DNA of 38,777 nucleotides, taken from the IMG/VR virus record IMGVR_UViG_3300022745_000088, positions 1 through 38,777 of that record; one strand, 5' to 3'. Under the pieces are notes generated by a model. The model made no database searches and had not been told where the DNA came from. It was given only the letters and a program-made list of their open reading frames with translations. This stretch comes from a virus. This document shows positions 1,301-34,562 of the stretch, piece after piece; the first letter of the stretch is position 1; every line of letters starts with the position of its first letter. Both the position numbers and the translations under genes were made by a program.

Positions 1301-1310
1301 CTGTTTCTCC

Positions 1311-1559: not shown

Positions 1560-1569
1560 TATTGGCTCC

Positions 1570-1806: not shown

Positions 1807-1813
1807 AAATCTC

Positions 1814-2065: not shown

Positions 2066-2967
2066 GGAACACCTGTGACATGTTCTTTCTTAGCAAAGTC
2101 GAGCATTGCTTTCTTGAAGGCTGTACCCTGAGTAGTGATGTGGTATCCACAGGAGTAGATACGACCACGCTTATCAACCTTATGAGTCAAGTAGAACTCG
2201 TTGCCTTGTTCTTCCATCAACTCATAGAACATATAGCTCTGACGCTTGAATGCATTCCAACCATCCGTCTTGTCCTGGGTATCCAGTTCAAAGGTTGGTT
2301 CCTCTTCTACATTGCATAGAAAAGGTACATTCAAACTCAATGCCACGTTGTTCATGGTATTCAGTACATCGAGGCACAGATCACCATCATGATGATTACC
2401 TGATCCAAGGATCAATGAATCATTGTGAGTGAGATATCCACTGCTGAAGTTATGGGTTAACTCCAGAGGTGAACACACCATTGGTGGTAGATACTGACTA
2501 TGCTCGATGAACTTAATAAGCTCAGGACTGAGTGGAATACGTGACACAACCATCAAGCTTGCTTGCTTGTTTTCTTTGGTAATGTCAAAGGCATCTGTAT
2601 TACACAGTACTGCCATTAACTCTGCCACAGTAGTAATAGCTTCAGTGCGATCACTGAACTTAAGCCTAGCTGCTATCTGTGCACTCACAGATGTGAATAG
2701 CTCTGGCTTCAATGAATAGGCAATGCCTACGAGTATGTCCATTACCAATGTAGGTACGTCCAACTGTTTAAGCTGAGCAATACGCTTCATCTTGGACTCA
2801 TAGTAGTTGCCATTCATGTAGTCATTGACTAGGCTATTACCCTGAACGATCTTCTTGAGCATTTCAGGATTGGTTTCAATAGCCTTACGAATCTTGGCAT
2901 CAATATGCTTGCGATTGAATCTCTCTTCGTTCATCTCCTGAAGAACGATTTGACGAATAGTGTCCAT
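2062..2967 (-). CDS. N4-like RNA polymerase II, small N-terminal subunit (gp15-like)
   Basis: This 301-residue protein corresponds to the N-terminal part of the split T7-like polymerase. Near its end, DKRGRIYSCGYHITTQGTAF (265-284) matches the T/DxxGR motif of single-subunit polymerases, which contacts the RNA:DNA hybrid near the active site; the chain then stops where the partner subunit with motifs A-C takes over. The ATG at 2967 overlaps the TAA of the macro-domain-like gene (TAATG) and has a GGAGAG site; an ATG four codons upstream lies inside that site and is less likely. With the 56-1300 product it should form N4-type RNAPII, needed for middle gene transcription. Confidence 0.9.
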   Translation of the reverse strand: MDTIRQIVLQEMNEERFNRKHIDAKIRKAIETNPEMLKKIVQGNSLVNDYMNGNYYESKMKRIAQLKQLDVPTLVMDILVGIAYSLKPELFTSVSAQIAARLKFSDRTEAITTVAELMAVLCNTDAFDITKENKQASLMVVSRIPLSPELIKFIEHSQYLPPMVCSPLELTHNFSSGYLTHNDSLILGSGNHHDGDLCLDVLNTMNNVALSLNVPFLCNVEEEPTFELDTQDKTDGWNAFKRQSYMFYELMEEQGNEFYLTHKVDKRGRIYSCGYHITTQGTAFKKAMLDFAKKEHVTGVP

Positions 2968-3311
2968 TAGTCTCTCCATCCTTGAGGAAGATTGCAGTTA
3001 GTGGGTGCACCAGTAAACATAGGTGCAATGTCTTTGTCTTGATAACCTGCCAAACCACATCCAATACGAGTGACATTGAATGTCAACTCTGGATGTTGAG
3101 TAGCAAACTGCTTGAAGTCATTCACGTAAACATGAATGTCTTTCAATGGCAGAGTACGAATGTTGTGGTCTTTAGTGGGTATGCCGTAACTATCACCTTG
3201 AAGGCCAATGCCCTGGCGATAGATAGCCCCGTGGTTCAATACTGCGTACTTAGCAGCACCTGCACCGTGAATGCCAGCTAGATTGCTGCCAAATACAAAT
3301 ATCTGTTTCAT
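2967..3311 (-). CDS. Macro-domain-like phage non-structural protein
   Basis: A 114-residue protein with the pattern FVFGSNLAGIHGAGAAKYA at 5-23 and TRIGCGLAGY at 81-90, typical of a widespread phage family distantly related to macro domains, which bind ADP-ribose and related ligands. GIPTKDHNIRTLP at 43-55 is also characteristic, and the ending GAPTNCNLPQGW is conserved in the family as I recall it. The start at 3311 has a TATGGAG site; an ATG four codons upstream is part of that site. It is the first gene after a hairpin promoter at 3344-3359 and is coupled to the RNAPII small subunit. The biochemical activity in phages is unproven; ADP-ribose binding is family inference. Confidence 0.8.
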   Translation of the reverse strand: MKQIFVFGSNLAGIHGAGAAKYAVLNHGAIYRQGIGLQGDSYGIPTKDHNIRTLPLKDIHVYVNDFKQFATQHPELTFNVTRIGCGLAGYQDKDIAPMFTGAPTNCNLPQGWRD

Positions 3312-3343
3312 TGGTTTCTCCATAAAGGCAAGAGCGCCAGCAC

Positions 3344-3359
3344 AAGCGCGGCAGCGCTT
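3344..3359 (-). promoter_or_regulatory. Hairpin early promoter (virion RNAP type)
   Basis: The + strand, which is the template for leftward genes, reads AAGCGC-GGCA-GCGCTT: a 6-bp stem with a four-base loop. It lies 33 bases before the macro-domain-like gene and after a leftward terminator. N4 virion RNAP recognises a small template-strand hairpin with a purine-rich loop (GGA in the P2 promoter) that extrudes from supercoiled DNA; five copies in the same orientation occur in the early region here. The tetraloop differs from N4's three-base loop. Confidence 0.65.
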
Positions 3360-3410
3360 TTATAGAGATAACTGTTTCAGCTGGGGTTTATTGTGTGTAG
3401 CAACCACGGG

Positions 3411-3443
3411 AAAAAACAAACCACCACCCCGAAGGGTAGTGGT
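3411..3443 (-). terminator. Leftward intrinsic terminator with UUCG loop
   Basis: On the minus strand a 10-bp stem ACCACTACCC/GGGTGGTGGT (one T-G wobble) closes a UUCG tetraloop and is followed by TTTGTTTTTT. It follows the 87-residue early gene by 8 bases and precedes the next hairpin promoter, so each early unit here has its own promoter and end. Confidence 0.9.
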
Positions 3444-3451
3444 TCACTGGA

Positions 3452-3715
3452 TTACTCCAGTGCGAAGCCGGAGCCATCGGCAGGAATGGCGGTCTGGTAA
3501 TCGATCTCGAGCGTAGCCAATATCTTCTGAGCACGCGACGGGTCTTCATTGAGCCAAGCCAACAGTGCCTTTTCATTAGGCTTGTTGTCTTTCAGCGGGA
3601 TGAAGCCGAGCTTCTTACGGCCACCAGCTTTGCTGGGCAGGTAGAAGTTCAGGAAGCCCTGAGCTTGCCAGTTAGTGTTGTTGGTATTGGACTGGGCGTT
3701 CGATTGATAAGCCAT
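3452..3715 (-). CDS. Small early hypothetical protein
   Basis: An 87-residue soluble protein. Residues 16-45 (WQAQGFLNFYLP, then KLGFIPLK) resemble a family of small phage proteins of unknown role in which an aromatic-rich strand is followed by a short Lys/Gly-rich turn; the second half, ending with DYQTAIP, looks helical. The start at 3715 has a TTGGAG site. It is a single-gene unit: hairpin promoter 45 bases upstream (3760-3773), UUCG terminator directly downstream. That compact arrangement suggests strong early expression. Function unknown. Confidence 0.75.
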   Translation of the reverse strand: MAYQSNAQSNTNNTNWQAQGFLNFYLPSKAGGRKKLGFIPLKDNKPNEKALLAWLNEDPSRAQKILATLEIDYQTAIPADGSGFALE

Positions 3716-3759
3716 GATAAAACTCCAAAAATGTGAATAACGGCAGGATTTGCCTTCTT

Positions 3760-3773
3760 AAGCGCGGTAGCGC
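3760..3773 (-). promoter_or_regulatory. Hairpin early promoter (virion RNAP type)
   Basis: AAGCGC-GGTA-GCGC on the + (template) strand, with a 4-bp GCGC stem and a GGTA loop, placed 45 bases before the 87-residue gene. It shares orientation and sequence with the copies at 5506 and 5758. Confidence 0.6.
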
Positions 3774-3876
3774 GATCAACGGTTCAAACTCCTTTACATC
3801 CCACATTCCCGCCACACATTTCAGCGGACGGAAACTCTACTCAACGCAGAGGATGAGATGTAAGGGAAGGTATGGA

Positions 3877-3966
3877 TTAGCCCCTCCAGGCCAGCATCAC
3901 ACCAATGCCTGCAAAGAGGACAACGGAGACGATGGCGTACAGAAGATCGACGTAGACGGATTTCAT
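3877..3966 (-). CDS. 29-residue single-pass membrane peptide
   Basis: A tiny gene starting at ATG 3966, six bases after AAGGAAA, and ending in TAA at 3877. The product is MKSVYVDLLY followed by a hydrophobic stretch of about 16 residues (AIVSVVLFAGIGVMLA) and a short WRG tail. This is a complete single transmembrane helix with a positively charged cytoplasmic end. The good ribosome site, the hydrophobic composition and its place between two early genes support it, although it is shorter than usual annotation limits. Early phage membrane peptides often affect host physiology or superinfection, but nothing here shows which. Confidence 0.6.
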   Translation of the reverse strand: MKSVYVDLLYAIVSVVLFAGIGVMLAWRG

Positions 3967-14469: not shown

Positions 14470-15882
14470 ATGAAATTCAATGATCCCGTAAACGGTAGCC
14501 CGTCCAGCGTCGGTACCCAAATCCAGAACCACTACTACGCCAAGAAGGCGCTGGTAGAACTGCCCAAGCTGCAATTCTTCTCGCAGCTGGCTGACGTTAC
14601 TTCTATGCCGAAGAACTTCGGTAAGAAGATCAAGCGGTATCACTACATGCCCATGCTCGATGATCGCAATATCAACGACCAAGGCATTGACGCTGCTGGT
14701 GTGGCGATCTCTGGTTCGACCTATACGGTTCGCTTTGCTGCGAACGTCGTGAAGGTTGCGAATGCTGGTAAGGCTGCTGCTGCTACCGCTATCAATGACA
14801 ACACCAGTGGCCTCGTTGCTACTGCTGGTGCCGATGGTTCGGGTGGTACTGGTCTGGCTAACATCACCCTGGTTGGTGGTCTGAGTGCCCAGTATGCAAA
14901 CGTCACCAAGGCTAATGCCGTGGTTGCTCTGAACGTTGGTGTGCTGTCCCAAGTCAATGGCGGCAACCTGTATGGTTCCAGCAAGGACGTTGGTTTCATC
15001 TCCGGCAAGATGCCTGCTCTCTCTGAGACCGGTGGCCGAGTGAACCGTGTTGGTTTCAAGCGTATCGAACTTGAAGGCACCATCGAGAAGTTTGGCTTCT
15101 TCGATGAGTACACCCAAGAGTCGATGGACTTCGACACCGACGAAGGTCTGATGGAACACATCAACCGTGAGATGGTTCTCGGTGCCAACGAAATGACGGA
15201 AGATGCTCTGCAGATCGACTTGCTGAACTCTGCCGGTGTGGTCAAGTACGCTGGTGCTGCCACGACCAATGCCGAGATCACCTCTGCCAGCATCGTTACC
15301 TACGGCGACTTGCTGCGTACGTCGATCACGCTTGATCAGAATCGTTGCCCCAAGCAAACGAAGATCATCACCGGTTCGCGCATGATCGATACGAAGGTTA
15401 TTCCTTCGGCTCGTGTTGCGTACATTGGTTCGGAGCTTCTGCCCCTGTTCAAGGCCATGAAGGACTTGCATAACAACCCCGCCTTCATCGGTGTGGAGCG
15501 TTACGGTGCAGCTGGTTCTACGACCCTGAACGGTGAAGTCGGTACCGTTGACCAGTTCCGTCTGGTGGTTGTGCCTGAGATGATGAAGTGGGCTGGTGCT
15601 GGTGCAGATGCCTCTGGCGATGCCACCTGTTACGAAACCAACAACCGTTATGACGTGTTCCCGATCCTGGTGGTTGGTGATGAGTCGTTTACGACCATTG
15701 GTTTCCAGACGGACGGTAAGACCGTGAAGTTCAAGATCATGCACAAGGCACCTGGTGAAGCTAACGCTACCCAGCTTGATCCTTATGGCGAGACTGGCTT
15801 CATGTCGATCAAGTGGTACTACGGCTTCATGTGCCTGCGTCCTGAGCGTATTGCTCTGATCAAGACCGCTGCTCTGCTGTAA
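14470..15882 (+). CDS. Major capsid protein (N4 gp56-like)
   Basis: A 470-residue protein right after the scaffold gene with an AAGGAAC site. The N-terminal part ([23 protein letters not shown], then [18 protein letters not shown]) and the central [18 protein letters not shown] segment match the capsid family of N4-like phages, expected to have the HK97 fold. Residues 80-180 form an Ala/Gly/Thr-rich region that may be an insertion domain, making it longer than N4's roughly 400 residues. Strong codon use (few rare codons, C-ending Asn/Phe/Tyr) suggests high expression. A terminator-like hairpin follows. Confidence 0.92.
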
Positions 15883-15898
15883 ACCAGTGAGCTAACAA

Positions 15899-15930
15899 GG
15901 AAGGGTAGGGCAACCTACTCTTCCTCTTTT
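15899..15930 (+). terminator. Terminator or attenuator after the capsid gene
   Basis: An 11-bp stem GGAAGGGTAGG/CCTACTCTTCC with one wobble closes a GCAA tetraloop and is followed by TCTTTT. It would let the capsid message end before the less-needed internal proteins. Confidence 0.85.
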
Positions 15931-15953
15931 CATTCCCTTTAGAAAGAACCGCA

Positions 15954-16540: not shown

Positions 16541-18043
16541 ATGACACCTATTGCTATTGATGACCTAACCCAAGCTTCGCTTGAGGGCACAGGTGTATTT
16601 GATATTCTGATGCGAGCCAATAAGGCTCACCTTGAAGCGGAGTTCACCAAGAACCGTATCAAGGGTCCAGAGTATTCAACGGTCTATCTGGGTGCTTTGT
16701 CCCAAGTCATGCAGACTGCGCTTCAGTTTGTACTCTCGCGTGAGAAGATGAACCTTGAAGCCCAGCTGCTCGATCAACAGATTCTGTTGGCTCAGGTTGA
16801 GGTTCAAAAGGCCAATGCCACACTGCTTCAAATCAATGCTCAGACCGAGCTTGTTAAGACGCAGCAAGCCAACCTGCTCATTGAGGCACAGAACATCCCT
16901 AAACAGGGTGATCTTCTCGTGGCTCAGAAGAACCACATGGTTCAGCAGACTGACAATCTGACCATTGAAGCACTGAATATCCCCAAGCAAGGTGTTGTTC
17001 TTACCAACCAAGCTGCCCAGGTTGCTCAACAGACTGCCAATTTGGTGGCTGAGTCTGCCAACATTCCTAAGCAAGGTTTGTTGATTGAGGCTCAACGTGA
17101 AGTCCAGGTTCAGCAGAAGCTGAATCTGGTCACTGAATCTGCTCGTACAGCTGCTCAGACTGAACAGATTGCACAAGAAGTACAAAACCTTGTGGCTACG
17201 AAGCTTCATATTGAGGCTCAGACCTCGATGGTTGCCCAGCAGCGTACCAATCTGCAGGATGAATTACAGACTGCAGCTAAGCAGCGGGACAAGATCAGTG
17301 CTGAGTTGCTTAATCTTGCTTCGCAGAAACTGCAAACCGAGGCACAGACGGTTCAGTTGACGCAGCAGACAGCCAATTTGGTAGCTACCAAGCTTCATAT
17401 TGACGCTGAAACGTCGAACCTGACTGCAACCAAGGCGCAGATCGAATCGCAGACTGTTCAGAACACCCAGCAGACCGCTAATTTAGTTGTTCAGAAGAGT
17501 CAGATTGAAGCACAGACAGCTCAGCTTACTCAGCAAACCAGTAACTTGGTCGCACAAAAGACTCATATCGAGGCTGAAACTACACAACTTGCACAGCAGA
17601 CACAAAACCTTGTGTCTCAGAAGGCTCAGATCGAAGCTGAGACTCTTTTGTCTGGTCAGAAGAAGCTGAATGCAGAAGTTGAGCATGATGTACTGAAAGC
17701 TCAAGAGTGCAAACTCAAGGCAGAGTACACACTGACTACATCTTCGGTTCTTAAGACTGACCAAGAGACTCTTTTGATCAGCCAGAAGGTGGCTACTGAG
17801 AAAGCTCAGGTTACTGGCTTGGGCGTGGATGACAATAGCGTGGTTGGTCGTCAGAAAGCTCTGTACATGGCTCAAACCAAGGGCTTTGCACGGGATGCTG
17901 AACAGAAGGCAGCTAAGATCATGGTCGATAGCTGGAATGTTCGTCGCACAACGGACGATACCCTTGATGCCAATCCAGCCAGCCTGGGTGATGTGTCTGT
18001 AGCCAGCGTGGTTCAGAAGCTGATGACCGGTTTGTCTCAGTAA
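16541..18043 (+). CDS. Long coiled-coil virion protein with heptad repeats
   Basis: A 500-residue protein that is mostly one long helix. Residues 120-180 contain three NIPKQG motifs spaced 28 residues apart, i.e. four heptads. Residues 271-368 contain units of 21 residues such as [20 protein letters not shown], with one unit shortened to 14; 21 and 14 are three and two heptads. No TM segment. It lies between the gp55-position gene and the TM-bearing internal protein. It may be an internal or tail rod; a tape-measure role is unlikely in a short-tailed phage. A terminator follows. Confidence 0.75.
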
Positions 18044-20963: not shown

Positions 20964-22588
20964 TGTCTACACCTATCACTTGGAAGAACGTAACTGGACC
21001 CTCGCTTGCAGAAGCGAGTCGTCCTTTGGAAGTCGCACAACGTTCCTTCTCTGGGGCGTTTGATGGCATCAATGATCTCTTTAAAAAGCAAGAGACTATT
21101 GATGCAGCCAACTGGACACAAACCAAAGACAACAACACCCAAGCTTTCTTGGACAAGTTGTATGCGGCACAAGGCCCCGAAGGCTTCAAGCAACTGCAAG
21201 CATCTGGTGAGCTAGACAAGATGATTGCTTCCAATGGTGTGCAGATTGACCGTGCAGCTGCAAGAGCAGCTGTCGATACCCGTCTTGGCACATTGCAAGG
21301 ACAGGCGCAGAAGGGCTGGGAGTATCAGCGAGCAGCAGAAGATGAAAAGGCTGCACCGCTCCTAGGTGAGGCTCGCAACCTTATGCTGAGTGGCAAGTTT
21401 GAAGATATGACGCCATTGATGGGCCAGATGGACCCACGTAACCGTGCACTCGTTGCAGGTGAGATGGACAAGTATCGTCGTGAACTTGTGGTTCGTTCAC
21501 AAACTGATGCCAAAGCAGCTAAAGACCTCGTACGTGTTGATGCTGAAATAGACCACTGGAAGAGGGCAGATGAAACAGCTGCTACTCAAGCCCGCGCATC
21601 AGTCATGTCTGCCAATGCTGCACAAACCCAAGCAGGTGCATCACTGCGGCAAGCGGCTGCTCATGAGAAACAAGTTGATTTTGCTCAACTGGAGCATAAC
21701 GAAAAGCGTCTGACTGAACTGGTTAAGGCAAAGGGCTCACTGGGCGGCGGCACTATTGGCTCATCCGATGGTCAAAAGTTTGTCGTAGATGAGATCAGCA
21801 AAGTAGTACCAGCAGGTGAAGACCGAAATCGTTTATTCGGTGCACTCGAAACGATTCGTGCTGATCCCCAGTTTAAAGATGCCCGTCCAGCGGATGTGGT
21901 CACATCTTTGCTAGGCGACGTGAGTACTGGGTCTGCTGCTAGGAAATTCTTTTGGAATGGCACAGGAGACTCAGCAGCAGACAGCCTGAAAAAAATTCTC
22001 AATTCTGGCGTAAACGTTAAGTCGGATACTGAGACTAAATATGCTGTCAGTACGATGGATCAGCAAATTGCTGCATTGAAAAGTGCACTGAAATATCCGA
22101 ATACAGCTGCTGATCCAGTCAATCCTGCTAAGCCTGGGGTACCTGTTCCAGGCGCTGCACCGGGTGCTGCTGCTCCTAGCCCTCAACCTGGGGCAGCTGC
22201 CCCTGCAACAGGGTCTACTAACACCTGGAGTCCTGAACTTCGCAATGCCTACCGCCTTGAGCAAGCGGAGATGGCTGCTCGTGTTCGTCCACTAGGAAGC
22301 TTCAGTCCAGAAGTCCAGAAAGCGATTGAGCAAGACAAGATTGACCTTACCAAGGCCACCGCTGATCAGCACAACAAGCGTGTGGAGATGGCTAAAAAGA
22401 CTCCAGGTGTGCCGGTACTTGATATGCCCGGTACCGGTGATGGTGGTCTTAATCCTATTCTTGCTGGTTTTCTTGACCCTGCTGCTCGTGCACAGATGGC
22501 TCGTGTTGAGCAATCCAAGTATGAAAACTGGGCCAAGGCAATGGATGATCGTCTGCAACTGGAGCTTGAGAAGGGAAAATCCCGGTGA
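20963..22588 (+). CDS. Internal virion protein (N4 gp51/52 position)
   Basis: A 541-residue protein, mostly helical, with a Pro/Ala/Gly-rich linker near residues 385-415 that divides it into a large N-terminal and a small C-terminal part. No TM helix and no catalytic motif are visible. It starts at the TAATG overlap with the gene before and ends at GTGA, overlapping the nuclease-like gene. Context, between a gp14-like protein and the virion RNAP, suggests a head-internal protein that leaves with the DNA. Confidence 0.68.
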   Translation: MSTPITWKNVTGPSLAEASRPLEVAQRSFSGAFDGINDLFKKQETIDAANWTQTKDNNTQAFLDKLYAAQGPEGFKQLQASGELDKMIASNGVQIDRAAARAAVDTRLGTLQGQAQKGWEYQRAAEDEKAAPLLGEARNLMLSGKFEDMTPLMGQMDPRNRALVAGEMDKYRRELVVRSQTDAKAAKDLVRVDAEIDHWKRADETAATQARASVMSANAAQTQAGASLRQAAAHEKQVDFAQLEHNEKRLTELVKAKGSLGGGTIGSSDGQKFVVDEISKVVPAGEDRNRLFGALETIRADPQFKDARPADVVTSLLGDVSTGSAARKFFWNGTGDSAADSLKKILNSGVNVKSDTETKYAVSTMDQQIAALKSALKYPNTAADPVNPAKPGVPVPGAAPGAAAPSPQPGAAAPATGSTNTWSPELRNAYRLEQAEMAARVRPLGSFSPEVQKAIEQDKIDLTKATADQHNKRVEMAKKTPGVPVLDMPGTGDGGLNPILAGFLDPAARAQMARVEQSKYENWAKAMDDRLQLELEKGKSR

Positions 22589-23340
22589 CACCACAACCAT
22601 CTGCTCCTTCGGGAGCAGTGGCGTCACCTACGATGGATTCAAAAGCACCTAAGGTCAGCGTACCTCTAGCATCCAATATTGGAACTGCTCCAGCTAAAGT
22701 CACAGGTTCCCAAACCCTAAGTTTCGGTGGTGATGGGTCAGTTGCGTCTGCTGCTACGCTACAAGTTAGTAAGGCGGATATTCGGGCACTTGGTAAGCCA
22801 AGAGAAGTAGTGACTGCTGCCCCTGGTGCAGTGTCCAGTAATAGTGCAAAAGTTGTTCTGACCTTTGCAACTAACATCAAAGATGGTGATACGGTTGACT
22901 TTGCTACTCCTGGGGGTAAAGCGCTGCCTGAAGGAACCGTTCCTAATAAAGCAGGTGGGTTTACTTGCAGAATCGAAGGTATCAACGCACCTGAAACAGG
23001 AAAAGGTTGGAAAGTTGGTGATAAAGGCGATCAACAACATGCACAAGAGTCTCTTCGGTACTTAGAAAAGCTAATCGCTAGCAAGCAAGTAAACGTGACT
23101 GTTACTGGAGATGCTAAGTACGGTCGTAACCTGTGTCAGTTGGAGGTACATGGCAAAGATGTGTCTCTAGAAATGCTTAGAGTAGGTGCAGCGATGATGT
23201 ATCGCAGGTATGTCCAACCAGGAAACCCACATTACGCTGAGTACGACGCCGCTGAAAAATCTGCTCGTGAAAATCATCGAGGTATCTTCGGGTATTCGAC
23301 GCCTCCTATCGATCCGGAAAGATACAACCACAGTAATTAA
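22585..23340 (+). CDS. Staphylococcal-nuclease-fold protein (thermonuclease-like)
   Basis: A 251-residue protein starting at GTG 22585 in a GTGA overlap. The first 85 residues look disordered, with no signal peptide. The rest is an SNase domain: KDGDT at 99-103, RIEGINAPET at 129-138, KYGRNL at 178-183, then RVGAAMMYRRYV, EYDAAEKSARENHRGIFGY. By alignment D102, R129, E137 and R181 match the nuclease residues D21, R35, E43 and R87, while D40 is N134. Coupling with internal virion protein genes suggests it is packaged or acts in head maturation. Activity is likely but the Asn needs testing. Confidence 0.87.
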   Translation: MTPQPSAPSGAVASPTMDSKAPKVSVPLASNIGTAPAKVTGSQTLSFGGDGSVASAATLQVSKADIRALGKPREVVTAAPGAVSSNSAKVVLTFATNIKDGDTVDFATPGGKALPEGTVPNKAGGFTCRIEGINAPETGKGWKVGDKGDQQHAQESLRYLEKLIASKQVNVTVTGDAKYGRNLCQLEVHGKDVSLEMLRVGAAMMYRRYVQPGNPHYAEYDAAEKSARENHRGIFGYSTPPIDPERYNHSN

Positions 23341-23349
23341 CTGCTGGGC

Positions 23350-23398
23350 TGATCCCATCTGATGTTTCTATAATGCTTAGAACCTCCAGATGGGATCA
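23350..23398 (+). promoter_or_regulatory. Inverted repeat enclosing TATAAT, abutting the virion RNAP start
   Basis: TGATCCCATCTG (23350-23361) and CAGATGGGATCA (23387-23398) are a perfect 12-bp inverted repeat with a 25-base loop. The start codon is at 23401. The weak ribosome site (GGGA at 23393-23396 region) lies in the 3' arm. The loop carries a perfect TATAAT at 23369-23374 without a good -35. RNA read through from upstream would fold and hide the site; RNA started inside the loop would not contain the 5' arm and would be free to translate. Confidence 0.7.
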
Positions 23399-23400
23399 GA

Positions 23401-26400
23401 ATGCCAAACTTCGAAATCAATCAGTATCTCGCCAGCCGTTTATCCGACGCGACGCTTCAAGCCAAACTTCGTGACATTGATCTTGCCGCCAAAGAAAAGA
23501 TTGTCGATCTAGGCGCAAAGAACGCAGCATTTGAAGCCCAACATGCAGCAGAAAAGGCTGCATACGACAATTCCTGGGTCGGTAAGATTGGTTTGGAGTC
23601 CGGTGGCTTCTTTGCCAACCGTGTTAACGACGCTGCTTCATTGGTTTCGGGTGCTTCCCGTCTGGCTGGACAGACCCTCTCTTTACCGGTGAATACTGCC
23701 TCTTTTATGGAGACGGCTGGCAATACCGAACAGGAAACCCAAGCATACAACCGATATGTTTCTGGCAAGCCACAAACCGGTGACATTGCCATCCTCGAGA
23801 CGCCTAAGGGTGCAGATGGCTCTACTGCTCTGAGTAACTTCCAGAATGCAGATAAGTTGCGTGGTGCTGCTCGTGATGTGAACAACACGTTCGATCTAAA
23901 CAAGATTGTCGATCCAGTCAACCGTAACAAACTTAGCCAAGACCTTGGTAACGGGTTTGATGCTCCTTGGGCAAAGCTTAAGGAGGGTGCTGAACAGGTA
24001 AGTCGAGGCAACCTGAGTGGAACAGGTGACGTTGCCAAGGGCATTGCAGGCCTCTTGAGCACCGCTGGCTCAGCGATCCTTAGCAACCCCTCAGCTGTAC
24101 GTGAATACGTGCTGGAGAACGCTCCACAGCTGCTGGTAGGTGCTGCAGGTAAGGCAGGCCAAGTGGGTATGGCTGCAAGCAACATCGGCTACGCAGTCGA
24201 TACCTATCAACAAGGCATCGAAAACTACGCCAAAGCCAACAATGGTCAGCTTCCTCCCGAGGAACAACGCCAACGCATGGCATTCCAGGCGGCTACTTTG
24301 GCCCTGGCTGAAGAGGGTAGTGATCTCATTGGCTTGGGCTTAGCCAAGGTAGGCGGTAAGGCATCTCGGAATGGTTTCAAGAACATTCTTAAAGCTGCTG
24401 CCGGTGGGTTTGCTTCTGAGGCACCTACGGAAGGCTACCAGACGTACATGGAAGGCGAGATCACAGGCAAACCTGCATCTGCCAAGGATGTATTCACCGG
24501 TGCTGTGATTGGGGGTGCTTCTGGTGCTGGCTTAACCGGAGGTCTTCGTGCATTAGCTGAGTCCACTGGGACTACTCCTGAAAAGATCGAAGAGCGTACT
24601 AAAGAAGCTCAGCTAAAGGAGGTCACGTTAAAGGCAATTCAGTCTGGAGATGTATCTGCATTTCTTGATGAGAAGTTGCCTACATATGCTCCTGAGCAAG
24701 CTGTCATTGCTCTCAGTGCGAACAATGCCCTTCCCGGGGCAACTGCTGAAAGTAAACAAGCCAACCTTGAGAAGGCTGGAGAGATCATTACTGGTCTGAA
24801 AACGACTAGAGATGACACTCAACGTGCCTACGATATCTCATCCCCTGAAGCCATTGCAGACTTCAAGACTCGTCTTGTAGAAGCTACTGCAGCTGGCGAG
24901 ACTGAGAAAGCAGCCTTTCTTCAATCGATGATCGACGAGGGGGAGAAAGACCCTAAGGCTGCTGATCGTCTCAAAGCCAAGCTCACTGGTATTGATGAAC
25001 AGATCAAAGCAGCTGAGGCTGCTCGGGTCAACATGCACCAGGAGTCTCAAGACAAGGATGTAGATGTAGCCAAGGAGATCGAGTCACTGAAGAGTGCTGA
25101 TCCTGTGGTTGCTCAAGCATCTGCAGAGAAGATCATCAATTTGTCGATGGCATTGCCTGACAAGCTGACTGATGTTCAAGCCACTGCACTTGCAGATGAC
25201 CAGACAATCAACCTTAGTCAGAATCAACGTACTTACCTCAGAGAGTTCTCTGCTGCTCGTCAGGCTGAGAATGCTTTGAAGAGCCTGGGTAAGGTTTCTG
25301 AAGATGTTCTTTACGGTGATGGTTCCAAGAATCTTGGCATTGCTGACTACCGTTCTAGCGTAGCTGTAGCCCTCAGCAGTGGTGATCAACGCTCTGCTGA
25401 TGAGAGCCTTTCTAAGCTGGATTCTTTCATCAAGGACCACACGAATAAAGCTCGTGTGTTGGCTCAGGCTTGGAATGCTTTTCAGAAGAATCCTAAGCAA
25501 GAACTGCAAGTGGTTAGTGATGGCAAACGTGGTTGGTCTTTTGAACCTAAAACCATGTCTAACGCTGAGCGTGAGGCCAATGGTGCTGTGTTTGTTTACG
25601 GGGCTACCAAAGACCTCGTAGCTGCTATTCCAGCTGAAGCTGAAGCATTGACCAAAGCAGCGAAAGAATTGCGTGCTGCATATGCAATGAAGTTTTCTAC
25701 AACCCCTGCAACTGAGGTAAGCAATGAGCAGAACGTACCGGAAGCATCCAGTGGAATTGAAAGCGCAACACAGCAATCTCAAACCCAAGCCACGCAAGAA
25801 AGTGGAACCGTTGATCAAAGTACTGGAACTGCAGAAGGAACTACCGGAGCAGTCGAAGCACCAGCTGCCAGTGTTTCAACGGGAACTTTAGGAGAACGGG
25901 TCAAGGCGGTTCTTGCCAAGGCAACTCGAGAAACTAAATGGGGTGCTGTAGATGACCCCATTGCTCAAGACCTGCTGAAGTCCAAATCTTTGGATTCGGT
26001 CTCTAAGGTTGTTGAAGACCTGGGTATTACTGCTGTGTCTGGTGTCTTGGGTGCTGGTGCAGGAAGTATCGTACTTGACACTGACAAGGGAGCACTTCGT
26101 TTGGGTGCAGGTAAGTTGGGCGACAGCATTAAGTCGTCTAACGTAATCCAGCCCATTGCTAGTGGTGAAGTTGGTGGCTTGCGGTATGAACTTATGCCAA
26201 AAGCAGATACAGCCAACATCACTGAAGAAGATGTAAAAGCCATGAGTGAAACTCTGGCAAAAGAAGGACTGGAGTTTTCTGACCCCGGTACAGACAACTT
26301 AGGTCGTGTTGATGGGAAGCTTGTTGTCATTGACTCAGGTGCTGTACAGAAGGCTCCTGCCTCTTCTGTGAAGACTAAGGAAGCTAAAACAGATCAAGGG

Positions 26401-29400
26401 CAACAGCAGTCTACTGAAGGTAGCACTGCACCCAAATCTGTGCAGCCTACGACACAGAAAGTGGAACCTAAGCCTGCCAAGGCTGAGAAGGTCAAGGCTA
26501 GTCCTGAGGACTATGCTCAGGCTGTTCGTATTGTTGAATCTCAGAAGACTGAAGAACCTTTGGATGTACCTGAGGGAATGGAGTCTTTGGTTCGTGCAGT
26601 ACAAAATAATGAAGAAGTCGATGTTCAGGAAGATGCACCTGAGCAAGGTTTGTCTGCTCTTCAAGAGAAGACCCTGGAAGGGGCCTCTCATCGTGAAAAG
26701 AAAGCTGGAGACTTCTTTAAACAGACTCCTAGCAAAGACACTGACGCTTCTAAGCGTCCGTTGGTTATGGTCAAGGATTTCCTGACCCAGGTTCTCAATA
26801 AAGCAGTCTATGCAACTGACTTCTTGAAGAACGGTGATGCTACGTCTCCAGAACAGCGTCGTGCATTCAAGACCTTTGTGCATGTGGCTCAGTTGTGGTT
26901 TAAACCAATCACCGAAGACTTGGTTGCATCACACAATGAGCTGTTCAACTATGAAGACCCTATCCGGTACTTCATCACGCAGACTAACCAAGATGGTAAG
27001 ACGACTGCAGATGTTGAAGAGAACATTAAGACTGCAATCGTTGCAGGTGTTTTTGGTTACATCAATGATCAGAGTGGCACTCCGCTCTATAACGATGAGA
27101 AAGCTATCAATGCTCTGCTTGGAAGAGAGAAGAGCACTCCTGTTCACGACTTCGTTCGTAAAGAGCTTGCACGTACCGGCCCACATCGTTTCCTGGTAGT
27201 CCAGAACGTTGGTAAGAAGATTACTGATGCTCTTGGTTTGCGTGAAGCATCGAAAGATGTGCCAGTGGACATGCTGGCTAAGCTGCAGGTGTCACTGGGC
27301 AATCATGCAATACGCCTCATGGAAGAGAAGGGTCTGTTTACCCGTCAAGAGAAGACCCAGGCTGAATGGAAGGCAATTGAATCAGCGGGTCAAGAAGAGG
27401 ATGAAGGTGACGGCTTTGCCGTTACTGAAGATAACGAGGGTGCTACGAAGATTCGCATTGGGGACAAGAACTTTGTCTTCTTGCAGCTGCAGAACAATGG
27501 TCGTGAACTGACTGGTGATGTTCGCAAGATTGCCGACTCGATGAAGGGTTCCAGCAACATCATTGATAACCTGTTCGGTATGGAGTCTGCCGTCCGTACG
27601 CCAAGCACTGAACCAATCAAGAAAGTCCAAGAGACTTCCAAGACTGGTATGGGTGTGCCTAGCTTTCTGCAGAAGCTCTTCAAGAAGAAACAGACTGAAG
27701 ATGGCTGGGTTGTTAACGAGCGTCAGATGAAGGTGCTTTCCTTCTTTGATCGTGATGAAGTTAGCGAACTGTACGGAGCCAAAGAAGAAGCCTTCGTCCA
27801 CAAACGCAACCTTTCATCTTGGGAAGCTAAGAAGGCTGGCCTGCATCGTGAGTACAACCAGTTTATGGACTGGTTTGGTGAAGCTATTGCCACTGCAGCT
27901 GAGCCATACAAGGTGCTGTCGTACATGGCTCCTGACATGTGGAACATGCAACGTCAGGGTTTGAAGAACTCTGTTGCCAATCCACAGAGCAGCAAGGTTG
28001 TGCGTCAGCTGATGAGCCTTCAGGCCTGGAACACTGAGGTCAAGCTCAACGATCCAGCCATGCTGAACAGCTTCATGCTGCGTGTTGCAGAAGGTATGGG
28101 TCGTAAGACTGAACGCTTCTTCTCACAGCCTTCCCTTGACTGGATTCAGTCCAAGATGGCAGACCCAGTAATGTCTGCTGGTGTGGAAGCTGCACAGGTG
28201 ATGTTGTTCGGTAAGGAAGCTCCTACCGATGAACAGAAGCAAGCCTTCACCGCTGCTGTCAAAGCAGGCGGTGAGAAGCTTCACAGCATGTCTGCACTCA
28301 TGGCTTGGGCACAGTACAAGGAAGCCCTCAAATCAGGCCCTGAGGCATCCTTTGAGACCAACCTCATGGGTGAGGTTGATGGTGTCTCCAATGGCTCTAT
28401 CCTGAACCATGTGTTGTACGGTGCTGCAGCTGGTGCAAAGGCACTGAATGAATTGCTCCAGCGTGGTGGTATCTATACCGCCAGTGCTGTAGCTCAAAAG
28501 TACAACGAGTACTACTCACAAGGTGGACGGGATATCTACCAGCACAATGCTTCGCTGGTTGATGCTGCTCTCACTGCAAAGGGAGAAGGGAACGTAAGCT
28601 TCAAGACTGCACTTACAGCAATCTGGGCTACGTCTAAGGTGCCTGTTGATGATAAGGGTGAAGTCACTGCTGGTGGTCGTGACATGCTGAAGACTGCTCT
28701 GAATCCTTTGAACTATGGTTCTGGATTTAAAAGCATCAAGAAAAACATGTCTGCCAAGTATGTGGATGGCATCTATGCTCAGCTGGAGAAGTTTGCTGAG
28801 GAAAGCTCCAAGCCAGACAACAAGCAACGTGTCCAGCTTGAACTGAACAGCTTCATTCAAAATTTGAACACTCTCTTGGGTGATCAAAAGGTGCATGAAG
28901 GTCGGCCCATTGAGTTCTACATGAACCTGGAACTCACCAAGAGCCAGACTAGAACGTTGGAAAATACTTACTCAGATATCGTTGCTGATACTGCTGAGGA
29001 AGTAGTGAAGGAAACCTTCAAGGATTTGCTTGCAGGTACTAAGGCAGTGACTACAGCTACCAACACAGCATTCGCTGTGTACAACGCTGTATATACAGCT
29101 GAACGTGCAGCATTCATCAAAGAGCTGGGCATCAAGGAAGTCAATCGTGGCAACAAGGACCGACCAAACATTGGACCTGAGCATGATCTGACGGCTGCAC
29201 AAGAAGAAGAACTGAAGATCAGACTTGCTCCGTTGGTTCCCATCATGCACACAGCAATGTCTGCACAAGAGGGGAATATCTACAACGGTTTGATGATGGC
29301 GAAGAAGAAGCGGAAGACTGATTACGGTGCTACGTATGAAGTCAGTTCCAACTTCCCCAAGAAATCGACTGTTGATGGCACTAAGACGATGCGTGGACAT

Positions 29401-32400
29401 GGACAGAGTGTTTCTCTGGCTGATCCTAGCGTCATGCCTATCTCTGCCTCTACGCAGGCTGTAGACGCTGCTATCTCTGCTGCTGCACAAACAGAACAGT
29501 CTGTTCTTAACTTGCATGATGCCAACGGTGATGGTGTTGGTACGCTGCATCTGACTGCTCAGGCACTCAACAAAGCCACCTGGGACAACCTGATGGCTTA
29601 CTCACCTCTGGCAGCTGCACATGAAGCTCTCATGCGTACTGTTCGTGGTGTGGTGGAGATGGAACGTGCAGGTACCTTGAGTCCTGAAGCCAAGGAAGCA
29701 ATCCGGGGGGCATTGGAGGCACTTGCAAGCAAGACCTTTGGCAAAGAGACAGCTGAGACCATCGTTGCCAATACTGCTTACAACACGTTCTTCATGGCTG
29801 CAAATGCAGACAGTACTAAGTACCAAGCCATGTCCCAGTGGACGGTGGTTGATCAGTACGCCTTTGATGGTGGCAGCTATACCGTCACGGACAAGAACAG
29901 AGAAGACGCAGCGAAGAAAGCAGACGAAGTACCCCAGGCCATGAAGCCAGCAAATGAGAAGTTGCTCCAGGATTTCACTGGTTTGGTTTCGGGTAATCCT
30001 ATTGATGTTGTCTATCAAGCCAAAACCAAGAATGAACTGACAGAAGACGAGCTTGCTACTCTCAAGGTAGAGACTCCTGACGCTATTACTGAGTTCTTCA
30101 AAGCCAATCCAACTGCATCTGTCACTGATGTGATTGGTTTGCTGGCTCCTGCTGGGATGCTTAGTGATGTGAATCGCAAGCTCCTGCAGTTGGTTTCCCG
30201 TGTCATGGATAAGTCGGTCAAGGTTCGTTTCCTTACGCCTGGTGAAGTGCGTGCGGATAACGTCCTTGCTTTGCCTAAGACTCCATCCTATGGCTGGTAT
30301 GTTTCGAAGGGAGACAAGGCAGAAATCTACTTGATGGATAAGGGGCTGACTGCTGAAACCATTCTTCATGAATTGATTCATGCAGCCATCACTCAAGCCA
30401 TCCACAACCCATCTGAAGCAGCCAAGGAATTGGTTGCTGAGTTGGGAGACATTCTTACCCAGGCAAAAGACTTCGTGGGTAAGTTGACAGAAGACAAGCA
30501 GCAGCAGTTTGCCCCTGCCTTGACGAGTATTGATGAGTTGGTTGCATGGGGTATGACCAACCAAGCCTTCCAACAGGAAGTGCTTGAGAAGTTCACCATT
30601 GAAACGAAGACTGCAGGCAATTCCCTGGTTACTGCTATGCAGGGTTTCATTGCTGCCCTGGTGAAGTTGCTTCGTGGAAAGCAAGATACGGTAATCAATT
30701 CGGGATTGATTACCTTAACCAACAACGTTGCGGGTTTGTTTGCAGAAGCAGGACAACAAAAGCAAGGCGACTTGATAAAGACATTCAAGGTCGCAGTTGC
30801 AGCTGTGGATTTAGATGATTCTTGGAATTCAAAGACTCCTGAAGCAAAAGCCAAAGTTGCTGCAGCACAGGCTGCTTACACCCGTTTGTTTGATGCCACG
30901 AAATCGATGCTCTTGGCTATGTCTAAGTATGGTTCTGAATTTACAGAGGGCTTGAAAGAGCGACTTGATCTAATCGATGAAGTTGTGGGAGACGACGAGG
31001 ATATTGACCTGCTTGTTGATCTTTATAACGAAACCAAAGAGTTCAAGGATGCTTTCAACGAGAAGCAGGGTTCGTTCAATTTCTCTATGGCTTCTCCAAT
31101 CGATACTTATAGTACGTTGGACATTCACAGAGCATTGGATAACGGAACGCTAGACCCAACGTTCCAAGACCACCTAGCCAACCTATTGAGTGGCATCGTT
31201 GAGAGCATCCACGGCCCGTTTGGTGCCTTGATGAACGAAATGAAGAAGTCTCTGGCTACCGATCCTATTGCTGTGTGGGCCAGGGCTGTCAATGCAGGAC
31301 ATGCACCGTTTGCTTCTGCCATCACTGCCTCCAATTTTGCAGGTACAGGACAAGAGCATTTCGCCATGACCCAGGTGGAGGCTACCGTTCGTGCTGCACT
31401 GGATGGTACTGACTCGACCCATGCTGTTTACAAGGAACTGGCAAAGCTGTTCGGAGAAGCCAAGAGTCAGCTGAAGCCTTCTGACTTTGCAAACGCCGGT
31501 GACTACGAGTTCATTTTCAACATGAACACGAACAATGGAGAGCGTTCGGATTACCTGTCGAGGTTTGCTGCTATTGGTTTGGCAAACAAGAAGGTCAATG
31601 ACCTGTTGAAGTTCAACACGGCAGCAAAGACCAGCAGACCAAACGCAACATTGTTTGATCGTCTGATGAACCTGTACGGCATGGTTATGACGTTCCTCAG
31701 TGATCGTGTCACTAAGGTCTATTCAGGCCAGCGTGGAGACTCCAAACTTGAAACGTTGGTGACTCAGCTGGTGGAGATGGAAGCACGCAAGCGTGAAGTC
31801 CTTCAAGCCAGACAGAACGGACAGAGAACCCTTGTTGAGCGTTTTGAGAAGAGCACTCAAGGTGTTGCTGATACTGTTCGTACCACTGCTACTGCAGCGC
31901 TTGGGTCTCAGTTTGTTCGAAACAACTCAAGTAACGTAGTACGCGGTGTTGGTGCTGTTGCACGCAGTATGACTGCAGGTAACTCTGACAAGTTTATGGA
32001 TGCAATCCGTAAGACTCGGGACAAGGTTATTGCTGACCAAGACGGCGTGATGATGGGTATCTTCACTGCTGTTAAGGGACCACTACAACAGTTCGAAGCA
32101 CTCCTTCGTGAGACGAAGAAGAGAGAGAAAGACCGTGAAGGACACATCAGCCGATATGCTGAGCAGGCTATGTATGCTTGGGGTAACGTCAAGTTCACCA
32201 AAGAGCAGAAGGCAAGCGTTACTGCTGTGTTGATGCGTACTGGTTTGCACAACTTGCTTGGACCTTTCGCCCTCAATGAAATTGAGCAGTTAATCAGCAA
32301 GCCAGCTGAGTTGAACAAAGCCATTGCTGACTACGAGAGCAAGCTTACTGGTCGCTTAAAGGATCATTACATCCATCAAGCCAATGGCCTTGGTTACTAC

Positions 32401-34524
32401 AAAGCCACGGGTATCAATGCTATTGACGTGTTGATGAAGAACGCTACCCTTATCTCAGGGATGAGAGGCACGAAGTACCAGAACCAAACAACAGAAGCGC
32501 AAGCAAAGGTAATGGAACCAATCATTGCTGGCTTGGCTACGTTGTATGCTTTGAAGTACACCGATGCTGTTCAACTGCACTCGGTTAGCCAGCTAATGCG
32601 TGACCAGAACCAACGTACTGACGGTAATGGTGCTGAGTTCATGCTGAAGGCACACAAAGACCTCGAGAAGGAATCCCTTGATCGAATCTTTGATGGTAAT
32701 CCATTGCTCATGGAGCATGGATACACGCCTGACATTGTGAATCCCTACACAGACATTAAGGTAGTGGACCAGCAAGAAGGCGAATCTCTTGTACGCCAGG
32801 GCTATAGCAAGGTTGTTGGTTTGGCTCAAGACAGTTCTAACGTCCGTGGCACATCCAAGGCTATCTACGTACTTCGTGACGGTGGTTTGATGCCCTGGTT
32901 GTCAGGCATCTTCTCTTTGACGAGTCGCCAAGCCAAAGGTACTAGCCTGCACAACGGATATCGCAATATCAATACTGCTGTTGGTTTGGAAAATGAAATC
33001 CTCCACATGGAAGTAACCGATGAGAAGCTGGACCGTCTTGATAAGTTGAAGAACCCGAGACAAGACCTGTCGATGGTGAAGGGAACCAACATGGCTCCCG
33101 TTTACAACGATGCAGGTGGTATCTCCAACTGGGCCTACTTGATGCAACACAGTACCAAGGACAACCTTTTGGAGCGAGACAATAACTTTGACACGGTACT
33201 TGGTGTGCTGGCTGGTTCGATTTACGACAAGGAAACCAGCAAGACCAACAACGAGAAAGCACTCCGGGCAATGGAAGAGCAGTACGAGGCAGACAAGCAA
33301 TCCGGCAATCTTGCTTCGTACATCTCCGTTGGACCTAAGTCTGCTTCGCGTGAGATGCGTGAACTGTGGAGGCTTCTGCCACAGGAAACCAAGGACGCAA
33401 GCAAGCACATCTTCGGTACTGAGGGCATCAAGGTTCGCAAGGATTCAGTGGACCTGTTCTTTGGCTACCGTAAATTGTCTGCCTCAGACTTCCTGCGTAA
33501 GGATCGCGCTGCTTTGGATGGTATTTCCAAGATTGCACGTAACGTCTTCCATCTCTATGCCACAACGCGAGGTATGAACCTGGGCGAAGCAGACGACTTT
33601 GCCAAGCGTATGGGCACGTACATCCGTAGGGGAGAGCGTGGTTGGCAAGAGGTGGTTAAGGAGGTCAAAGACATTGTGGTGATCAAGAACATCATCACCT
33701 TGTTGAGCAACATTTACGGCAATGACTCGATGCTCTTCTTGAAGGGTGTGGAGAACCGTTGGCAGCTTCAGCACACGGCTATTCAGGGAGCCTTAGATTA
33801 CCAGCGAGACAGTACCGAATTGGAGAACTTGGAAAACAACATTCGCATGGGTTACATCAAGGGTGACTTGCGGACGATGGAAGCTCGCATTGTTAAGCTC
33901 AAGAATGACTTGGACCGTAACCCGGTTAAGCCTTTGATTGATGCTGGCTTGATGCCTACGATTGTTGAGGACGTTGGTAATAACGACAACGTTTACTCTT
34001 ACAAGAGCATGTTCGCACGCAAGGCAGAGGGCATCGTTAACAAAGTACCAGGACCACTTAAGACGTTGGGCAAGAACGTTTATCTGACCCACGACACAGC
34101 AGCGTACAAGTTCTTGAGCAAGACGACGCAGCTGTCCGACTTCACGGCACGGTATGCCTTGTACAAGCATTTGACCCAAAGGGCAGACAACCCATTGAGC
34201 CATGAGCAGGCAGCGTCAGAGGCTTCGGATACGTTTATTAACTACGACATTCCGATGAACAGGAAAGTACAGTATTTGGATGACATGGGAGTTATTCCAT
34301 TTACCAAGTACTTCTTCCGTATTCAGAGAGTGTTGATGAAGACGTTCAAGGAAAATCCAGGTAGGGTATTAGCTTTGTTGGCATTGGCTCAGGCTAAGGA
34401 CTTAGGCCCCATCGTTCTAGATAGTTCTTGGATTCACCATCTAGGCAACAACCCTGTGCGATCTGGAGCATTCCAAATCTTCGGAGTGATGGACGAACTG
34501 CCAGCATTGAAAGTGCTGAAGTAA
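23401..34524 (+). CDS. Giant virion RNA polymerase (N4 gp50-like) with kinase-like and metallopeptidase-like modules
   Basis: A 3707-residue protein (N4: about 3500), packaged and injected to transcribe early genes. The polymerase core has motif A GEVDGVSNG with D1660, motif B R1760-x3-K1764-x7-Y1772-G1773, and motif C NLHDANG with H2039/D2040; spacings are close to N4's. Residues 835-985, flanked by low-complexity linkers, look like a small protein-kinase fold: Gly-rich LGAGAG (883-888), ELMPK hinge (930-934), D961-x4-N966 and D978. Residues 2255-2420 hold HELIH (2323-2327) with E2379 as third-ligand candidate. The N-terminus has glycine-rich hydrophobic segments (near 190-390). The C-terminus (NYDIPMNRKVQYLDDMG onward) resembles other N4-like virion RNAPs. 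Start preceded by an inverted repeat. Confidence 0.93.
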   Translation: MPNFEINQYLASRLSDATLQAKLRDIDLAAKEKIVDLGAKNAAFEAQHAAEKAAYDNSWVGKIGLESGGFFANRVNDAASLVSGASRLAGQTLSLPVNTASFMETAGNTEQETQAYNRYVSGKPQTGDIAILETPKGADGSTALSNFQNADKLRGAARDVNNTFDLNKIVDPVNRNKLSQDLGNGFDAPWAKLKEGAEQVSRGNLSGTGDVAKGIAGLLSTAGSAILSNPSAVREYVLENAPQLLVGAAGKAGQVGMAASNIGYAVDTYQQGIENYAKANNGQLPPEEQRQRMAFQAATLALAEEGSDLIGLGLAKVGGKASRNGFKNILKAAAGGFASEAPTEGYQTYMEGEITGKPASAKDVFTGAVIGGASGAGLTGGLRALAESTGTTPEKIEERTKEAQLKEVTLKAIQSGDVSAFLDEKLPTYAPEQAVIALSANNALPGATAESKQANLEKAGEIITGLKTTRDDTQRAYDISSPEAIADFKTRLVEATAAGETEKAAFLQSMIDEGEKDPKAADRLKAKLTGIDEQIKAAEAARVNMHQESQDKDVDVAKEIESLKSADPVVAQASAEKIINLSMALPDKLTDVQATALADDQTINLSQNQRTYLREFSAARQAENALKSLGKVSEDVLYGDGSKNLGIADYRSSVAVALSSGDQRSADESLSKLDSFIKDHTNKARVLAQAWNAFQKNPKQELQVVSDGKRGWSFEPKTMSNAEREANGAVFVYGATKDLVAAIPAEAEALTKAAKELRAAYAMKFSTTPATEVSNEQNVPEASSGIESATQQSQTQATQESGTVDQSTGTAEGTTGAVEAPAASVSTGTLGERVKAVLAKATRETKWGAVDDPIAQDLLKSKSLDSVSKVVEDLGITAVSGVLGAGAGSIVLDTDKGALRLGAGKLGDSIKSSNVIQPIASGEVGGLRYELMPKADTANITEEDVKAMSETLAKEGLEFSDPGTDNLGRVDGKLVVIDSGAVQKAPASSVKTKEAKTDQGQQQSTEGSTAPKSVQPTTQKVEPKPAKAEKVKASPEDYAQAVRIVESQKTEEPLDVPEGMESLVRAVQNNEEVDVQEDAPEQGLSALQEKTLEGASHREKKAGDFFKQTPSKDTDASKRPLVMVKDFLTQVLNKAVYATDFLKNGDATSPEQRRAFKTFVHVAQLWFKPITEDLVASHNELFNYEDPIRYFITQTNQDGKTTADVEENIKTAIVAGVFGYINDQSGTPLYNDEKAINALLGREKSTPVHDFVRKELARTGPHRFLVVQNVGKKITDALGLREASKDVPVDMLAKLQVSLGNHAIRLMEEKGLFTRQEKTQAEWKAIESAGQEEDEGDGFAVTEDNEGATKIRIGDKNFVFLQLQNNGRELTGDVRKIADSMKGSSNIIDNLFGMESAVRTPSTEPIKKVQETSKTGMGVPSFLQKLFKKKQTEDGWVVNERQMKVLSFFDRDEVSELYGAKEEAFVHKRNLSSWEAKKAGLHREYNQFMDWFGEAIATAAEPYKVLSYMAPDMWNMQRQGLKNSVANPQSSKVVRQLMSLQAWNTEVKLNDPAMLNSFMLRVAEGMGRKTERFFSQPSLDWIQSKMADPVMSAGVEAAQVMLFGKEAPTDEQKQAFTAAVKAGGEKLHSMSALMAWAQYKEALKSGPEASFETNLMGEVDGVSNGSILNHVLYGAAAGAKALNELLQRGGIYTASAVAQKYNEYYSQGGRDIYQHNASLVDAALTAKGEGNVSFKTALTAIWATSKVPVDDKGEVTAGGRDMLKTALNPLNYGSGFKSIKKNMSAKYVDGIYAQLEKFAEESSKPDNKQRVQLELNSFIQNLNTLLGDQKVHEGRPIEFYMNLELTKSQTRTLENTYSDIVADTAEEVVKETFKDLLAGTKAVTTATNTAFAVYNAVYTAERAAFIKELGIKEVNRGNKDRPNIGPEHDLTAAQEEELKIRLAPLVPIMHTAMSAQEGNIYNGLMMAKKKRKTDYGATYEVSSNFPKKSTVDGTKTMRGHGQSVSLADPSVMPISASTQAVDAAISAAAQTEQSVLNLHDANGDGVGTLHLTAQALNKATWDNLMAYSPLAAAHEALMRTVRGVVEMERAGTLSPEAKEAIRGALEALASKTFGKETAETIVANTAYNTFFMAANADSTKYQAMSQWTVVDQYAFDGGSYTVTDKNREDAAKKADEVPQAMKPANEKLLQDFTGLVSGNPIDVVYQAKTKNELTEDELATLKVETPDAITEFFKANPTASVTDVIGLLAPAGMLSDVNRKLLQLVSRVMDKSVKVRFLTPGEVRADNVLALPKTPSYGWYVSKGDKAEIYLMDKGLTAETILHELIHAAITQAIHNPSEAAKELVAELGDILTQAKDFVGKLTEDKQQQFAPALTSIDELVAWGMTNQAFQQEVLEKFTIETKTAGNSLVTAMQGFIAALVKLLRGKQDTVINSGLITLTNNVAGLFAEAGQQKQGDLIKTFKVAVAAVDLDDSWNSKTPEAKAKVAAAQAAYTRLFDATKSMLLAMSKYGSEFTEGLKERLDLIDEVVGDDEDIDLLVDLYNETKEFKDAFNEKQGSFNFSMASPIDTYSTLDIHRALDNGTLDPTFQDHLANLLSGIVESIHGPFGALMNEMKKSLATDPIAVWARAVNAGHAPFASAITASNFAGTGQEHFAMTQVEATVRAALDGTDSTHAVYKELAKLFGEAKSQLKPSDFANAGDYEFIFNMNTNNGERSDYLSRFAAIGLANKKVNDLLKFNTAAKTSRPNATLFDRLMNLYGMVMTFLSDRVTKVYSGQRGDSKLETLVTQLVEMEARKREVLQARQNGQRTLVERFEKSTQGVADTVRTTATAALGSQFVRNNSSNVVRGVGAVARSMTAGNSDKFMDAIRKTRDKVIADQDGVMMGIFTAVKGPLQQFEALLRETKKREKDREGHISRYAEQAMYAWGNVKFTKEQKASVTAVLMRTGLHNLLGPFALNEIEQLISKPAELNKAIADYESKLTGRLKDHYIHQANGLGYYKATGINAIDVLMKNATLISGMRGTKYQNQTTEAQAKVMEPIIAGLATLYALKYTDAVQLHSVSQLMRDQNQRTDGNGAEFMLKAHKDLEKESLDRIFDGNPLLMEHGYTPDIVNPYTDIKVVDQQEGESLVRQGYSKVVGLAQDSSNVRGTSKAIYVLRDGGLMPWLSGIFSLTSRQAKGTSLHNGYRNINTAVGLENEILHMEVTDEKLDRLDKLKNPRQDLSMVKGTNMAPVYNDAGGISNWAYLMQHSTKDNLLERDNNFDTVLGVLAGSIYDKETSKTNNEKALRAMEEQYEADKQSGNLASYISVGPKSASREMRELWRLLPQETKDASKHIFGTEGIKVRKDSVDLFFGYRKLSASDFLRKDRAALDGISKIARNVFHLYATTRGMNLGEADDFAKRMGTYIRRGERGWQEVVKEVKDIVVIKNIITLLSNIYGNDSMLFLKGVENRWQLQHTAIQGALDYQRDSTELENLENNIRMGYIKGDLRTMEARIVKLKNDLDRNPVKPLIDAGLMPTIVEDVGNNDNVYSYKSMFARKAEGIVNKVPGPLKTLGKNVYLTHDTAAYKFLSKTTQLSDFTARYALYKHLTQRADNPLSHEQAASEASDTFINYDIPMNRKVQYLDDMGVIPFTKYFFRIQRVLMKTFKENPGRVLALLALAQAKDLGPIVLDSSWIHHLGNNPVRSGAFQIFGVMDELPALKVLK

Positions 34525-34528
34525 AACG

Positions 34529-34562
34529 AAAGCCGGGTAGCTCATAACTACCCGGCTTTTTA
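34529..34562 (+). terminator. Terminator after the virion RNAP gene
   Basis: A 12-bp stem AAAGCCGGGTAG/CTACCCGGCTTT with loop CTCATAA and a following T-run. It ends the late transcript five bases after the stop codon. Confidence 0.92.

Follow-up and report, generated by a model that had tools for sequence, protein, structure and literature searches.

The analysed window, a stretch of 38,777 bases of DNA from an uncultured virus, was judged to come from an N4-like schitovirus by its genes for terminase, portal, capsid, and virion RNA polymerase (vRNAP). Its plus strand carries in succession a gp51-like gene, a gene for a 251-residue endonuclease-like protein (22585-23340; phrog_452, E about 1e-6), and the gene for the 3707-residue vRNAP (23401-34524), whose identification in an earlier note on this DNA is borne out by a match to phrog_2206 (E=0). 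The 60-nt gap between the last two genes holds a perfect 13-bp inverted repeat 5′ of the vRNAP gene, with the 5′ arm CTGATCCCATCTG at 23349-23361 and the 3′ arm CAGATGGGATCAG at 23387-23399, separated by a 25-nt loop (23362-23386) with weaker inner pairing of TTCTA with TAGAA. The earlier note had rightly described a perfect repeat with a 25-nt loop, but gave its length as 12 bp and placed the end of the 3′ arm two bases before the ATG, where the sequence has only one (23399 and 23401). As the note had also reported, TATAAT lies in the loop at 23369-23374, and GGGA, found in the leader only at 23392-23395 within the 3′ arm, is the Shine-Dalgarno site. The TATAAT is the putative -10 box of a promoter belonging to the vRNAP gene itself, and transcripts from it would be expected to start near 23381. 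The stop codon of the endonuclease-like gene is 8 nt 5′ of the hairpin, and ribosomes halting there might open the hairpin base. Directly 3′ of the vRNAP stop codon, at 34529-34559, is a strong 12-bp terminator-like hairpin. In the related contig L003, a single 977-residue open reading frame (987-3920) precedes vRNAP and ends in sequence that looks similar to the end of the 251-residue gene, so the endonuclease-like gene may be fused there.

All other perfect inverted repeats in the window are shorter than this 13-bp one. Repeats of at least 12 bp are not rare on a genome-wide scale, with three seen in ten shuffled 38.8-kb genomes; within the leader, none of 4000 dinucleotide shuffles attained 13 bp, the best reaching 10 bp, and the leader RNA folds with a z-score of -4.5 to -4.9 relative to shuffles. 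TATAAT is present as a single copy on the two strands of the window, in the hairpin loop, where Markov models predict 3-8 copies. Compared with a sigma70 promoter, whose -35 box stands 16-18 nt from the -10 box, the window has a perfect -10 box, no extended -10, and no -35 box, in agreement with the earlier note, as the best hexamer matches at 3/6 positions. The missing -35 box would fit a possible dependence of the putative vRNAP promoter on the single-stranded DNA-binding protein SSB. On both strands of the window, TATAAT and most of its one-off variants (TATGAT, TACAAT, TATACT, TAGAAT) are several-fold below expectation, and -10-like hexamers are likewise depleted in the late half of N4; this scarcity may reflect selection that removes accidental host promoters. 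An Rfam search of the element returned no family, only a 16-bit chance match against a gathering score of 100, and the window leader found no matches in a DNA search of the phage collection and no relative in a scan of genome contigs. The pattern of the loop 16-mer was found in 108 stretches of viral contigs; among those examined only one, in the related contig L167, lies at a vRNAP start, and the others are due to chance.

Computed folding indicates how strongly the hairpin would hide the ribosome site. We calculated an opening cost, defined as the free energy needed to free positions -15 to +3 around the start. For the window this cost is 20.9-23.6 kcal/mol on a read-through RNA that includes the 5′ arm, compared with 4.2 kcal/mol on an RNA beginning 20 nt before the ATG, near 23381. 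The same difference is seen in L167 (26 kcal/mol with the 5′ arm and 4.5 without) and L003 (20.8 and 4.0 kcal/mol). On the long RNA the computed stem covers the Shine-Dalgarno site, as a leader of the T4 gene e type requires. Opening costs above 15 kcal/mol were found at 7/59 schitovirus vRNAP starts and at 5/238 other gene starts (Fisher p=0.003, which is optimistic because related sequences were included). The start region of a 541-residue gene at position 20963 of the window is also costly to open, at 17.2 kcal/mol.

The hairpin, the TATAAT loop, and the spacing are kept in L167 and L003 despite different arm sequences, which upholds the earlier description of an RBS-masking hairpin with a promoter-like box in its loop. 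The vRNAP of L167 is 54% identical to that of the window over the first 136 residues, and its capsid protein 87% identical. Its arms AATCCTGTCGGTTCGT and ACGAACCGACGGGATT flank TTTCTATAATGCTT, which shares its loop core with the window, and are followed by a T-run and the ATG. The L003 vRNAP is 47% identical to that of the window at the N terminus, and the arms CATAGTCCATT and AATGGACTATG enclose GTAATTG and CAATTAC; the loop contains CTATAAT, and a single base separates the 3′ arm from the ATG. Comparison of the arms across relatives for paired changes, proposed in the earlier note, shows that 5/11 arm positions differ between the window and L003 and that all five substitutions are compensated on the opposite arm. 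CTATAAT is the longest block invariant across the three leaders. Across the two L003 contig pieces of 23 kb and 20 kb, the plus strand has no TATAAT besides the loop copy, and the loop copy of L167 is the only one on either strand in 11.9 kb. The nested TATAAT is shared with only these two close relatives. A long hairpin around TACACT in L046 was not counted, its start-masking cost being only about 9 kcal/mol. The hairpins of L085 and L164 are strong (15.6 and 17.8 kcal/mol), but have no convincing -10 box in the loop and belong to starts that are only predicted.

Inverted arms that surround a -10 box could also act at the level of DNA, as inverted binding sites for a repressor or activator around the promoter. 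We consider this very improbable: the arm sequences are unrelated between relatives while their complementarity is kept, the distance between the perfect arms varies from 25 nt in the window to 33 nt in L003, and the 3′ arm is always over the ribosome site.

In N4 and most other lineages, the gap before vRNAP is occupied by an intrinsic terminator. Such terminators lie upstream of 32/59 vRNAP genes and 31/181 other genes (p=1e-7, again optimistic because of related sequences). In a tree of 66 vRNAPs, 11 leaders have a masking hairpin and 33 a terminator, and the two almost never coincide, since only L167 has both (p=0.006). The window clusters with L167 and L003 in a supported group that is separate from the roseophages and lies inside terminator-bearing lineages. 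A -10-like box follows the T-run of the terminator in many relatives, as TATATAAT in L006, L061, L079, and L302 and as TAGAAT in L019, L049, L064, and L090. In L043, L056 (about 3413-3450), L094 (about 15138-15170), and L096 (about 17901-17936), GATAAT instead stands directly before the terminator stem upstream of vRNAP. Because this box abuts the stem, RNA initiated from it would be missing part of the 5′ arm, and the layout would be a promoter-in-terminator version of the arrangement in the window. The leader of N4 gene 50, which encodes vRNAP, is like that of the window in two respects: an element separates gp51 from vRNAP at the same place, and a -10-like TATAGT precedes the ATG. The N4 element is, however, an intrinsic terminator, and the leader has no strong start-masking hairpin. 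Within the window, a terminator-like hairpin 3′ of the capsid gene is followed by TTTAGAA and the next gene start (15883-15953), a layout resembling the terminator-plus--10 arrangement before vRNAP in relatives. Phages of Pseudomonas, several of Vibrio, and those of Kosakonia/Pectobacterium have no gap at this place and neither hairpin nor terminator, and the Pseudomonas schitoviruses in particular indicate that members of the family can do without the device.

The window hairpin itself was rejected as an intrinsic terminator owing to its 25-nt loop and the lack of a T-run after 23399. It was likewise rejected as a hairpin promoter of the kind recognized by N4 vRNAP, which has a stem of about 5 bp and a 3-nt loop with a central purine (PMC6027278), compared with 13 bp and 25 nt here. 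With terminators as the usual occupant of the gap and TTTTTT after the L167 stem, the element could be a degenerate intrinsic terminator that plays no part in translation. This is scarcely probable, given that the window and L003 have no U-run and loops of 25-33 nt, that their perfect or near-perfect stems are maintained by compensatory change, and that one arm is placed on the ribosome site. A long perfect stem between cistrons could also be an RNase III processing site, separating the upstream cistron from the vRNAP mRNA and creating its 5′ end without an inner promoter. We regard this reading as distinctly unlikely, since it would explain neither the unique TATAAT in the loop of three lineages nor the exchange with terminators. 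In L167 (11397-11449), the stem followed by the T-run could both terminate read-through and mask the ribosome site, and it is possibly an intermediate state between a terminator and a masking hairpin.

Start-masking hairpins also precede vRNAP in cultured roseophages, of which we read six (DSS3phi2, EE36phi1, R7L, DFL12phi1, RPP1, and V13). In the first five the hairpins cover the Shine-Dalgarno site and mostly the ATG too, at 17-26.5 kcal/mol, while the hairpin at the V13 start is weaker (13.6 kcal/mol, under the 15 kcal/mol line). One stem pair in R7L is switched from C-G to G-C, a compensatory change. Because the stem is shifted in V13 and RPP1, pair statistics from the alignment of the six phages are weak, with a single pair showing changes on both sides; the masking in V13 and RPP1 is visible in folding only. 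The Rhodovirinae leaders thus resemble that of the window in having hairpins, either of 11-13 bp or composite, whose 3′ side covers the Shine-Dalgarno site and, in many cases, the ATG, but differ from it in their unrelated sequence, separate tree branch, and lack of TATAAT in the loop. No sigma70 -10 box is present in the roseophage loops, and a conserved TTATGA in the 5′ arm is a candidate promoter motif only. We did not find these hairpins described in the roseophage genome paper (PMC2784036). Especially long composite hairpins extend over the vRNAP start region in DFL12phi1 (L297, 1450-1500) and in Alteromonas phage PT15-A5 (L286, 19040-19095).

By its anatomy, the layout in the window is that of T4 gene e, as the earlier note had recognized, and no known device is closer. 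In T4, longer early transcripts of gene e form an inhibitory structure that lowers lysozyme synthesis 100-fold, late promoters adjoining the ribosome site give RNA without the 5′ strand, and the soc, 49, and I-TevI leaders carry related structures (PMC3014915). Common to both systems is a hairpin that blocks the Shine-Dalgarno site or the start codon of longer transcripts, a role predicted by folding for the window. The T4 gene e leader nevertheless has no sequence relation to that of the window, in whose relatives terminators replace the hairpin, and T4 late promoters are of the gp55 type (TATAAATA) rather than the sigma70-type TATAAT of the window. We found no account of such an element for N4-like phages in a limited search of the literature.

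Which RNA would be masked depends on the strand layout. The plus strand upstream of vRNAP carries 16 kb of late structural genes, for terminase, portal, tape measure, and capsid proteins, while genes of early or middle type (RNAPII subunits, dUTPase, RuvC, Gam, and Sak4), recombination genes among them, are on the minus strand. For late transcription, N4 uses the host sigma70 polymerase, which N4SSB directs; its late genes, among them those for terminase, portal, tape measure, and capsid proteins, are transcribed in the opposite direction to the early and middle genes (PMC4496689). Because the structural genes share the strand of the hairpin and early- and middle-type genes are on the other, the RNA that crosses the hairpin is most likely that of the late structural operon, unlike in T4, where the device silences early RNA. 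The earlier note had proposed a timing role, in which the hairpin keeps earlier transcripts from yielding vRNAP until a late promoter becomes active, the use to which T4 gene e and I-TevI put this layout (PMC3014915). The gene arrangement on the two strands speaks against such a timing device, and we think it unlikely. With read-through RNA most likely late, insulation or control of dosage fits better than an early/late switch. Furthermore, a terminator could take the place of the hairpin in relatives if insulation from the operon is the role, which a pure early-to-late timer would not explain.

Our preferred reading, to which we assign a probability of roughly 0.68, is therefore an RNA insulator that acts in cis and has a promoter nested in it, similar to the device of T4 gene e; it would shield vRNAP from the late operon and determine how much of it is made. 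From the sequence of the element, its pairing, its conservation, and its replacement by terminators, we infer promoter activity, translational repression, and a purpose that could combine as follows. Messages from late promoters upstream, in the operon of terminase, portal, and capsid genes, would run into the vRNAP gene and fold the 13-bp hairpin, which would hide the Shine-Dalgarno site so that read-through RNA yields little vRNAP. Host sigma70 polymerase, probably with a phage late activator, would initiate at the loop TATAAT, giving a shorter message without the 5′ arm and with a free ribosome site. A private promoter, and not the abundant structural operon, would thus set the synthesis of vRNAP, of which the N4 virion carries 4 ± 1 copies (PMC12633501). 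The intrinsic terminator that most relatives have in the gap before vRNAP would achieve the equivalent result by stopping transcription, and L167 would have both devices.

A broader proposal is that the place before vRNAP is an 'insulator slot' across the Schitoviridae, filled interchangeably by a terminator, a terminator-promoter fusion, or a promoter-bearing start-masking hairpin, that uncouples this giant protein of roughly four copies from the structural operon, with the clade of the window and the roseophages having reached the RNA solution separately. We give this generalization even odds. The insulation idea can be tested in the cultured phages N4, DSS3phi2, and EE36phi1. If true, it would place a device familiar from T4 in a second and unrelated phage family, at that family's defining gene, and it offers an answer to how phages avoid operon-level synthesis of a 3,500-residue protein needed in few copies. 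The exchange of terminators and start-masking hairpins at one conserved place would then show that transcriptional and translational insulation are evolutionary equivalents.
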